This document shows, piece after piece, positions 4,493-9,834 of a stretch of DNA of 45,721 nt. Source of the DNA: an uncultured Pseudomonadota bacterium (lineage in GTDB: Bacteria > Myxococcota_A > UBA796 > SXON01); contig CAJBVW010000101.1 of the NCBI GenBank assembly GCA_903959175.1, positions 1-45,721 of the forward strand. Reading direction: 5' to 3'. The stretch's first letter is position 1. The number at the start of each line of letters is the position of its first letter. The position numbers were made by a program, and so were the translations under genes. The notes under the pieces were generated by a model. The model was not told the origin of the DNA. It did no database searches and was given only the letters and a program-made list of their open reading frames with translations.

Positions 4493-5335
4493 GTGGGGAG
4501 GTTCACCGTCGCGTGGCCGACGCTCGTCGCGTTGTGTCGCGAGGCGGTGATCGCGTGGGGCACGCTGGGTCTGGTCGTGGCCGTGTGGCACCCGGCGGTC
4601 ACCGTGCTCGGGATGTTGCTCATCGCGACCCGCCAACATGCGCTGTACATCCTCTACCACGACGCCGTGCACGGCCTGGTGGCGCGGCCGCGGCGGCTCA
4701 ACGATCTGCTGATCAACGTGTTCGTGGGCATCCCGCAGCTGCTGCCGATCCACCTCTACCGCGCCCTGCACCTGGTCCACCACCAGCACCTCGGGACCGA
4801 GCGCGACCCAGAGCGGGTGTTGCTCTACGTCGGGCAGGCGTGGAACTATTCCCCGTTGCCGACCGGGCGGCTGATCTGGCAGGTGGCGGGGGACCTCTTG
4901 TTGTGGAACAACGTGCTCACCGGGCTCGGGTACCTGCGCGAGCGGCTGTCGCCGAGCGGGCTCCGCCTGCCGCCGGGGCCGGTCTACCCGGAGTTCTTCG
5001 TGCTGTCGGCGCTGTTCTGGGCGGGCTGCGGGGCGTTCGCGTGGGGGGCGCCGGAGATGGCGATGCGGGCGGCGATCGTGTGGTTCGTGCCGCTGCTCAC
5101 GCTTACGCAGGCGATCCAGAAGGTGCGGTCGTTCGCGGAGCACGGGCGCGGCTGGGTGTCGTACTCGTGGGCGCCGGGGTGGTTCGGGCGGTGGGTGTTG
5201 TGGCCGTACAACATCAACTACCACCGCGAGCATCACGAGCGGGCGGATGTCCCTTGGTATGAGCTGCCGACGGTGTTTGCGGGGCGGGAGGCGTGGGAGG
5301 GGAGGCGATTGGTGGGGTTGGTCTGGAGGGGGTGA
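4493..5335 (+). CDS. Membrane di-iron fatty acid desaturase/ketolase-like protein
   Basis: A 280-residue membrane protein of the fatty acid desaturase superfamily, which uses a di-iron centre and O2 to desaturate, hydroxylate or ketolate lipids or carotenoids. Three histidine boxes are visible: HDAVH at 56-60, HLVHH at 93-97 and HREHH at 244-248. An extra conserved-looking EHG sits at 216-218. Hydrophobic segments near 20-45, 65-85, 165-185 and 190-205 would be membrane spanning. The short length and spacing recall carotenoid ketolases or hydroxylases as much as acyl desaturases, so the substrate is open. The GTG start abuts the preceding stop, indicating coupling to MoxR-VWA. It converges on the Rieske oxygenase with 7 bp between stops. 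Confidence 0.85.
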   Translation: MGRFTVAWPTLVALCREAVIAWGTLGLVVAVWHPAVTVLGMLLIATRQHALYILYHDAVHGLVARPRRLNDLLINVFVGIPQLLPIHLYRALHLVHHQHLGTERDPERVLLYVGQAWNYSPLPTGRLIWQVAGDLLLWNNVLTGLGYLRERLSPSGLRLPPGPVYPEFFVLSALFWAGCGAFAWGAPEMAMRAAIVWFVPLLTLTQAIQKVRSFAEHGRGWVSYSWAPGWFGRWVLWPYNINYHREHHERADVPWYELPTVFAGREAWEGRRLVGLVWRG

Positions 5336-5342
5336 GAGCGTC

Positions 5343-6374
5343 CTAAATCCAGAACTCCGCCTCTCGAACTTCGCCTTCCGGCGCGTCCCGATCCGCCGCC
5401 GCCAGATCCCGGAGCAGCTCGATCCACTCGTGGTGGAGGTCCGCCGACGCGTGGTGGAAGGCCTCTCGCCCGTGCGCCCGGAGGTTGGCACCCTGCAACG
5501 CCATGATCGTCACGTCCTGCTCGATGACACGCCGCGTGTACCGACCCAACAGCGGCTTCATCAGCTTCGACACCAGGCGGGAGCCGAGGTTGTACGAGAT
5601 CAACGTGTACACCCGCGTCGACGCCTCGGTCTCCGGCGTGCACGTGCTCGTGATGACGAAGCCGCGCTCCCCGAAGTGGTAGTCCACCCGCGTGGTGTTG
5701 GGCATGTAGAAGCGGTCGGTGTGCGTCATCGGCTCGCCCGTCGGGTTGAGGAGGCGGCCGGTGAAGCCGATCTCGTCGTCGGGTTGGTGGTAGGTGACGA
5801 GCACGCTCGCGTCCGTACGTTCGACGGTCATGGCGACCTTGCGCCGCGCCTCGCTGCGGAACCACCCCTTGTGAACGAACACCGTGTGCGGCACGTCCAT
5901 GAAGTTCTCGACCAGCTGGGTCACCCCGTTCGCGAAGGGGGTCACCATGTAGTAGGCGCGCCACCCCGGGGTGTCCCAGTGCGGCATGGGGAAGGGGTCG
6001 CCGACGGGGGCGCGGCGGCCCATCCACACCCACACGAGGCCGTAGCGCTCGGTGACGGGCCAGGCGGGGACGGAGAGCGTCGGGATCGGCGCGTCCTTCG
6101 GTTGGGCGGGGATGCCGACGAGGTGGCCCTGAGCGTCGTAGGTCCACCCGTGGTACGGGCAGCCGATCCTGCCCTCGAAGCAGGCGCCGGCGGACAGGGG
6201 CGCGTTGCGATGGAGGCAGCGGTCGGTGAGCGCGACGGCGCGGCCGCCCCCGTCCCGGAAGAGCACGAGGCGCTCGCCCAGGATCGTGCGCGCGACGGGC
6301 CCGCGTGACGTGATCTCCTCTTCCGTGCCGGCCGCGTACCAGCTCTCGGCGATCCGTCCGCTCGTCTCCCGCAT
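5343..6374 (-). CDS. Rieske [2Fe-2S] non-haem iron oxygenase, alpha-subunit type
   Basis: A 343-residue oxygenase. The Rieske cluster motif is complete: C53-x-H55 (CLHRN) and C72-x2-H75 (CPYHGW). The mononuclear iron site Nx2Dx2Hx4H follows as N157, D160, H163, H168 (NFMDVPHTVFVH). The SWYAAGTEEE opening resembles single-component oxygenases of the VanA/pheophorbide-oxygenase/sterol-demethylase broad group, which act on aromatic, terpenoid or lipid substrates with a separate reductase. No reductase or ferredoxin gene is present nearby. The gene is the last of a minus-strand set with GH3 (22 bp upstream) and a desaturase. The substrate cannot be told from sequence, but the neighbours suggest a lipid or isoprenoid acid. 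Confidence 0.92.
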   Translation of the reverse strand: MRETSGRIAESWYAAGTEEEITSRGPVARTILGERLVLFRDGGGRAVALTDRCLHRNAPLSAGACFEGRIGCPYHGWTYDAQGHLVGIPAQPKDAPIPTLSVPAWPVTERYGLVWVWMGRRAPVGDPFPMPHWDTPGWRAYYMVTPFANGVTQLVENFMDVPHTVFVHKGWFRSEARRKVAMTVERTDASVLVTYHQPDDEIGFTGRLLNPTGEPMTHTDRFYMPNTTRVDYHFGERGFVITSTCTPETEASTRVYTLISYNLGSRLVSKLMKPLLGRYTRRVIEQDVTIMALQGANLRAHGREAFHHASADLHHEWIELLRDLAAADRDAPEGEVREAEFWI

Positions 6375-6396
6375 GCCGCCTCCGCCGCGTCCGTCC

Positions 6397-8912: not shown

Positions 8913-8952
8913 TTCCGGGGCGGGGCGGGGCGCCGCTCCCGACGCGCGCGGT

Positions 8953-8958
8953 TAGCCC
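8953..8958 (+). promoter_or_regulatory. Candidate -10 box TAGCCC, leaderless start for hydrolase
   Basis: GGTTAGCCC ends 6 nt before the GTG at 8965. The spacing matches other gene heads in the window although the sixth base is not T. Confidence 0.35.
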
Positions 8959-8964
8959 GGCCCC

Positions 8965-9834
8965 GTGTGGTCCCCCGCCGCCTTCGCCACCTACGCCGAG
9001 CGTTACCCCGACACGCCCGCGCTCCCGACGGTCGTCTCGCTCGGCACGGCCTTCGTCGAGGCGTGGTCAGGCGCCGACCTCGACGCCCGCGTCGTCGCCG
9101 CCACCCGCGGCCTCCACGTCGTGTTCGTGCGGGGCTTCCTCGGCAACTGGATGCCGGGCAACCTCGCCGCGCCGGTGCGTGCCCTCCGCGCCCTCGGCGT
9201 GCACGCCACGCTCGCGCGTACGGACAGCGGCGCGCCCGTCTCCGCCAACGTCGCCGCCCTCGCCGCGCAGGTCCCCGCCGGCCCGCTCCTCCTCTGCGGC
9301 CACTCCAAGGGCGGCCTCGAGTGCCTCCGCCTCGCCGACACGCGCCCGCTCGACGTGCGCGGCGTCCGGTTGAGCCAGACGCCGCGCGGCCCCTCCGCCG
9401 TGCTCGAGAGCCTGCTGCTCCGGCGTCACCAGGAGAGCCTCGCCCGCCCCCACCGCCGCGCCGCCGAGGCCCTCCAGCGCGCAGGGCTCCACGCGATCGG
9501 GGCGACCCCGGGCGGGACCGAGCTCACTCGCGAGCCGCTCGCCACCGTGATCGCAGCGGTGGACGCCGCCCCGCCGCGCCCCTTCCCGGTGTGGCAGACC
9601 GCGTCGTGGTCCAGCCGCCCGACCGCCTGGCTCGACTCCTTCCACGAGCGCCTCGGCGAGATCCGCCCGCGTTGCGCCCACGACGGCCAGTTCTACGTGG
9701 AGGACCTCGTGTGGCCGGGGCTCCCGCACCTCCTCCTCCCGCACCTCGACCACGCCCAGCCCGCCATGGGGGGCTTCGGCTTCGACCACGTCCGCTACTG
9801 GAAGGCGCTGATCAGCCTGATCGCCGCGGCATGA
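8965..9834 (+). CDS. Alpha/beta hydrolase-fold protein (lipase/esterase-like)
   Basis: A 289-residue protein with a serine-hydrolase nucleophile elbow GHSKGG (Ser114) after a hydrophobic strand LLLCG. The preceding VVFVRGFLGN segment fits the oxyanion-hole strand of the alpha/beta-hydrolase fold, and a late His (FGFDHVRYW, near 275-283) could complete the triad. There is no evident signal peptide, so it is probably cytoplasmic. It diverges from the desaturase-GH3-Rieske operon and may release or transfer the lipid substrate, by inference from position only. The GTG start is supported by the upstream -10-like box. Its 3' end overlaps the convergent GNAT-like gene by 23 bp. Confidence 0.78.
   Translation: MWSPAAFATYAERYPDTPALPTVVSLGTAFVEAWSGADLDARVVAATRGLHVVFVRGFLGNWMPGNLAAPVRALRALGVHATLARTDSGAPVSANVAALAAQVPAGPLLLCGHSKGGLECLRLADTRPLDVRGVRLSQTPRGPSAVLESLLLRRHQESLARPHRRAAEALQRAGLHAIGATPGGTELTREPLATVIAAVDAAPPRPFPVWQTASWSSRPTAWLDSFHERLGEIRPRCAHDGQFYVEDLVWPGLPHLLLPHLDHAQPAMGGFGFDHVRYWKALISLIAAA

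Follow-up and report, generated by a model that had tools for sequence, protein, structure and literature searches.

To our knowledge, OlsH is the one bacterial enzyme of the GH3 family for which a role has been found. It is encoded in the OlsH/OlsI operon of Singulisphaera acidiphila, which directs ornithine-lipid synthesis: OlsH makes N-acyl ornithine and OlsI, an alpha/beta hydrolase acting as an O-acyltransferase, adds the second acyl chain (PMC12493201). A GH3-type gene also neighbours an alpha/beta-hydrolase gene in the DNA stretch analysed here (the window), 45,721 nucleotides of contig CAJBVW010000101.1 from an uncultured bacterium. Where the OlsH/OlsI operon has OlsG and OlsI, the window GH3 has oxygenases and two GNAT-fold enzymes as its recurrent partners. 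These genes travel together across phyla, with intact catalytic motifs or folds. The locus is probably the greater part of an eight-gene cluster, independent of polyketide synthases (PKS) and nonribosomal peptide synthetases (NRPS), for a small acylated amide that is finished by oxygenases and exported. The statement of an earlier note on this DNA that bacterial GH3 proteins have almost no assigned roles is partly outdated by the publication of the OlsH role in 2025 (PMC12493201); the window GH3 itself is not OlsH, as it scores 18.2 bits on the NF052613 equivalog model, whose cut-off is 620. The part of the locus carried by the window comprises the following genes (D, desaturase-like; ABH, alpha/beta hydrolase).

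4493–5335, plus strand: D2, membrane di-iron enzyme of the FA_desaturase family (PF00487, 97.6 bits)
5343–6374, minus strand: Rieske non-heme iron oxygenase of the VanA/SxtT type (PF00355, 79 bits; PF19112, 56 bits)
6397–7935, minus strand: GH3 acyl-acid amido synthetase-like enzyme (PF03321, 112.4 bits; PF23571, 36 bits)
7936–8901, minus strand: D1, membrane di-iron enzyme of the FA_desaturase family, opening the D1-GH3-Rieske run (PF00487, 93.5 bits)
8965–9834, plus strand: ABH, alpha/beta-hydrolase-fold enzyme (weak Pfam label, invariant Ser/Asp/His)
9812–10531, minus strand: gene N, predicted GNAT-fold acyltransferase without a Pfam family (AlphaFold2 model)

The first five genes, which the earlier note had listed, are all present at these positions with their catalytic motifs intact, and the layout it described holds. 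D1, GH3 and the Rieske gene follow head to tail on the minus strand with gaps of 0 bp (D1/GH3) and 22 bp (GH3/Rieske), ABH diverges from D1 with 63 bp between it and the D1 start, and D2 runs towards the Rieske gene, its stop lying 7 bp away. The true start of D2 may lie downstream of 4493; the called frames of its relatives begin later. The 3′ end of ABH is overlapped by a sixth gene, N, which is part of the locus and makes it larger than described before. Its product and an N-myristoyltransferase-like (NMT-like) protein encoded on another contig of the same assembly are two acyltransferases that the earlier note had missed.

Co-conservation of the gene set

The complete gene set is seen in L033 and L034, both from the window's genus, in the order N, ABH, D1, GH3, Rieske, D2, a small protein, the NMT-like tandem-GNAT protein, D3 (a third desaturase) and a DUF2062 protein. 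The genes for the NMT-like protein, D3 and DUF2062 are found on contig C68 of the window's own assembly with their mutual order unchanged; D3 and the NMT-like gene belong to the locus even though they lie on a different contig in the source assembly. D2 is directly abutted in the window by a VWA/AAA gene pair (3332–4492) that is located on other contigs in both same-genus genomes, and the junction reflects either a rearrangement specific to this lineage or a join made in assembly.

Relatives of all eight genes occur within about 10 kb in Burkholderia arboris (L159, a 3.5 Mb sequence deposited as a plasmid), with identities of 44% for D2, 31% for N, 31% for the NMT-like protein, 33% for ABH, 46% for D1, 36% for GH3, 42% for the Rieske enzyme and 38% for D3. 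Read along one strand, the succession N (+), ABH (−), D1 (+), GH3 (+), Rieske (+) and a minus-strand desaturase reproduces the order and orientation of the window. The D1 relative directly precedes GH3, as in the window, and the ABH relative (E 8e-34) occupies the same divergent position. The order is largely, not fully, kept: the NMT-like gene is found between N and ABH, and the desaturase after the Rieske gene is closer to D3 than to D2, whose relative precedes N.

The distribution of the gene set was first assessed with the window GH3 as query against 379 genomes of the phylum. Two GH3 groups were distinguished by score, the window type being defined by more than 190 bits, a line drawn by hand at a gap in the score list. 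Window-type GH3 genes were found in 19 genomes, and N lies within 10 kb of them in 16; among the three genomes where it does not, G220 has a contig end inside the cluster. By inspection, none of the GH3 genes of the other group in this phylum-wide search shares a contig with N. In named genomes, an N profile identified 80 loci, distributed over Myxococcota, Bdellovibrionota, Planctomycetota, Gammaproteobacteria and other groups. In 43 of these the flanks reach 9 kb or more to either side; GH3 is present in 37 of the 43 and a Rieske gene in 32. The named loci had been selected on N itself, which makes the GH3-based search of the phylum the less biased of the two. Co-occurrence in other genomes, which the earlier note had proposed to look for, is therefore strong by both counts. 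N, GH3, Rieske, NMT-like, D1 and D2 are found together in six further loci (L063, L077, L078, L102, L103, L109). Such clusters are also carried by isolates in culture, namely Pseudomonas benzenivorans DSM 8628, Pleionea sediminis and Bacteriovorax sp. BSW11_IV, in which the product class, if real, is directly testable. N is the most constant partner of the window-type GH3, and N and the NMT-like protein are more constant partners than the desaturases or the hydrolase.

Several architectures are found. Their type labels were assigned by tblastn against families defined in this analysis and with a basic in-house gene caller, which leaves the limits of individual genes approximate.

Type 1: N, GH3, Rieske and NMT-like, often with desaturases and an FG-GAP membrane protein
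Type 2: Rieske, N, SDR, ferritin-like, a weakly AurF-like protein, ferredoxin, Rieske, FA_hydroxylase, hexapeptide acyltransferase and GH3; many in Bacteriovoracales
Type 3: N, GH3 and NMT-like with radical-SAM genes
Minimal type: N, GH3 and NMT-like with exporter genes

The minimal cluster of P. benzenivorans (L138) is accompanied by HlyD and MFS genes, while in Acinetobacter baumannii (L158, NZ_CP064203.1, a 3.97 Mb replicon likewise deposited as a plasmid) the N-GH3-NMT-like set is found with HlyD, MFS and a TolC-type outer-membrane channel. On a mobilizable IncF plasmid of Citrobacter portucalensis (L160, NZ_CP134684.1), N and GH3 lie with several radical-SAM genes and an N-acetyltransferase gene, an annotated and mobile copy of type 3; no close match to this cluster was found in E. 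coli genomes. The B. arboris, A. baumannii and C. portucalensis loci all came from a search of a plasmid collection. No PKS or NRPS was seen among the recurrent partner families, the largest of which is the FG-GAP protein (median 936 amino acids). Six type 2 loci from Bacteriovoracaceae and related bacteria (L097, L098, L115, L118, L133, L140) are rich in oxygenases, with several Rieske, ferritin-like, ferredoxin and OlsE-like genes. A recurrent neighbour without a Pfam match is a 485-amino-acid protein with a CGACH haem-binding-like motif (L110:7288–8745).

Enzymes and their described relatives

The window GH3 exceeds the Pfam cut-off of its family nearly fivefold (23.6 bits for PF03321) and keeps the ATP/adenylate motifs TGGSSGAEK, ATEG (E305), RYxxxD (D366) and GEK (G394-E395). 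G105, K111 and E305 are invariant in its relatives; D366 and G394-E395 are nearly so. Like the plant GH3 amido synthetases JAR1, GH3.5, GH3.8 and GH3.12, with whose structures its profile aligns over almost the full length, it retains the adenylation motifs; it differs from them by its low identity and by its position in a bacterial multi-gene cluster. Its relatives score 33–38 bits on the OlsH model. The GH3 tree separates the window group from the second GH3 of the same genome and its kin with a support of 100, and places the GH3 enzymes of type 2 clusters in one clade (support is SH-aLRT only, and two members are long-branched). A second, distinct group of bacterial GH3 enzymes is given a precise genomic context by the cluster. 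The second GH3 gene of the genome (G000:C23; L051:5383–6951), from the other clade, adjoins a gene for an HpnB-like glycosyltransferase. A different GH3 context is found on a Streptomyces plasmid (L161, NZ_CP027299.1), where the gene lies in a type I PKS region with a threonyl-tRNA ligase gene.

The product of gene N has no Pfam match. Its AlphaFold2 model (pLDDT 95.5, built from 65 aligned sequences) has the fold of a GNAT acyltransferase, the best PDB folds being GNAT acetyltransferases such as AAC(2′)-Ia (E 7e-7). The NMT-like protein has a tandem GNAT fold over its whole length, and N-myristoyltransferases are the best PDB matches of its model, again over the whole length (E 1.7e-14, TM 0.56–0.63). 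It differs from these enzymes by an identity of 10–14%, by having no Pfam match and by its occurrence in bacterial clusters; among the relatives scanned, L038:6293–7408 has no Pfam match and L080:13476–14582 no NCBIfam match. In 40 of 40 complete sequences the family's C-terminus falls at an identical alignment position and the residue at −5 is acidic, a constancy not shared by the other families compared. N-myristoyltransferase uses its C-terminal carboxylate as catalytic base (PMC7048800). Given the fixed C-terminus of the NMT-like protein, the same base is predicted for it: by analogy, the protein probably acylates a small amine with its own C-terminal carboxylate as base. This is a clear mechanistic prediction for the family. 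N and NMT-like, two acyltransferase families without a Pfam match, can be named as markers of the cluster.

The Rieske enzyme keeps its cluster ligands (C53-H55/C72-H75) and iron site (D160, H163, H168 and D287), all eight being invariant among 13 relatives. The nearest PDB entries to its profile are SxtDIOX and SxtT, which match best, followed by the dicamba demethylase DdmC and the methylxanthine demethylase NdmA. It shares with SxtT/SxtDIOX and DdmC the VanA-type subfamily and the metal ligands. The solved enzymes nearest to it have small polar molecules rather than sterols as their substrates. The best matches also brought a saxitoxin-like product into consideration. It was rejected because no other described part of the saxitoxin pathway occurs among the recurrent partners; sequence similarity alone is uninformative on the product of the window cluster.

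Both D1 and D2 have the hallmarks of membrane di-iron desaturases/hydroxylases, with PF00487 above cut-off and three His boxes (HExFH / HRxxHWGHH / THHRH in D1, HDAVH / HLVHH / HREHH in D2) that are invariant among relatives. D2 is weakly similar to CrtW and to the arginine hydroxylase GntB. The latter, like OlsE acting on ornithine lipid, is a membrane di-iron enzyme that works on amino-acid head groups; OlsE is in turn weakly matched by the FA_hydroxylase of type 2 clusters. Unlike true GntB and OlsE, D2 reaches 55 of the 380 bits and the type 2 FA_hydroxylase 68 of the 475 bits set as curated cut-offs. PDB profile searches started from D1, D2 and N gave no matches.

ABH carries a weak Pfam label (Abhydrolase_1, E 0.02) and weakly matches the MGS0156 esterase. 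Its Ser114 (HS[KR]GG), Asp240 (AHDGQF) and Asp262-His263 (LDHxQP) are invariant in five relatives. A window-type ABH was found at few loci, and its role may therefore be accessory.

A proposed amide route and its rivals

In the proposed route, GH3 would convert a carboxylic acid into its acyl-AMP at the expense of ATP and then couple the acid to an amine. N and the NMT-like protein would each transfer an acyl group from a thioester donor (coenzyme A or acyl carrier protein) to an amine. The Rieske enzyme and D1, D2 and D3 would modify either the building blocks or the molecule once assembled, by oxidation, desaturation or hydroxylation, ABH may remove or transfer an ester or acyl group, and the product would leave the cell. 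The HlyD/MFS-type genes beside minimal clusters suggest export in at least some hosts. The earlier note had envisaged oxidation of a lipid or isoprenoid acid followed by its conjugation. One functional, biosynthetic-looking unit stands, on the order largely kept in B. arboris and the GH3 adenylation motifs; the lipid or isoprenoid acid is at most a candidate substrate, the nearest solved Rieske relatives acting on small polar molecules.

More tentatively, and with somewhat less than even confidence, the locus may represent a widespread and unrecognised cluster class. Its members would combine N, a distinct GH3 and a second acyltransferase (NMT-like, or hexapeptide in type 2) to make amides without PKS, NRPS or ribosomal peptides, with oxidative modules that can replace one another (Rieske/di-iron, ferritin-like or radical SAM) and, in some hosts, exporters of their own. 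The class would extend over Myxococcota, Bdellovibrionota, Planctomycetota, Gammaproteobacteria (including Acinetobacter and a Citrobacter plasmid) and Burkholderia. If true, it would be a PKS/NRPS-independent amide route possibly missed by cluster finders built on PKS/NRPS. The cluster was described nowhere in the open-access literature searched, which is weak evidence of absence as most subscription journals lie outside it.

Several observations weigh against an exported, oxygenase-finished amide. Exporter genes are found at few loci only and there is none in the window's own cluster, which is moreover split over two contigs in the source genome. Type 2 clusters lack the NMT-like gene, and their hexapeptide acyltransferase and OlsE-like hydroxylase would also fit a modified membrane aminolipid. 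Finally, a 10-transmembrane (10-TM) protein of RND/MMPL-like topology and without a Pfam match (L071:13011–15218) is a recurrent neighbour beside several clusters, and lipids are often the cargo of RND/MMPL-like transporters.

The main rival is an aminolipid pathway in which GH3 makes an N-acyl amino acid, ABH adds a second acyl chain, oxygenases and desaturases modify the chains or the head group, and the product stays in the membrane. It takes this rank because OlsH is also a GH3 enzyme and OlsI an alpha/beta hydrolase acting as an O-acyltransferase (PMC12493201). The OlsE-like hydroxylase of type 2, the weak likeness of D2 to an amino-acid side-chain hydroxylase, the 10-TM proteins that adjoin some clusters and a PlsC-type acyltransferase found in L102 between D2 and D1, near the ABH site of other loci, all agree with it. 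However, the scores of the window GH3 and its relatives on the OlsH model are low, the scanned window genes around the locus include no methyltransferase family and hence no OlsG-like N-methyltransferase, and window-type ABH is found at few loci whereas N and NMT-like recur. The patchy distribution, the plasmid copy and the EmrAB-type exporters are also unlike a housekeeping membrane lipid. We consider the aminolipid pathway unlikely, if still worth weighing.

A catabolic or detoxifying unit, in which the Rieske and desaturase-like enzymes attack a foreign small molecule that GH3 and the GNAT enzymes tag for disposal, is distinctly less probable. The dicamba and methylxanthine demethylases among the close PDB relatives of the Rieske enzyme and the acetylation of antibiotics by GNAT enzymes with an N-related fold are in its favour, but neither ring-cleavage nor beta-oxidation genes were seen among the recurrent partners. 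The fixed core holds three acylating enzymes that are retained when radical-SAM genes replace the oxygenases, which argues for assembly rather than catabolism.

That unrelated enzymes merely lie side by side in a GC-rich genome, as the abrupt stop of the cluster at D2 beside unrelated AAA/VWA genes in the assembly might suggest, is excluded by co-conservation, the order being largely kept in Burkholderia and the gene sets recurring in many genomes of several phyla.

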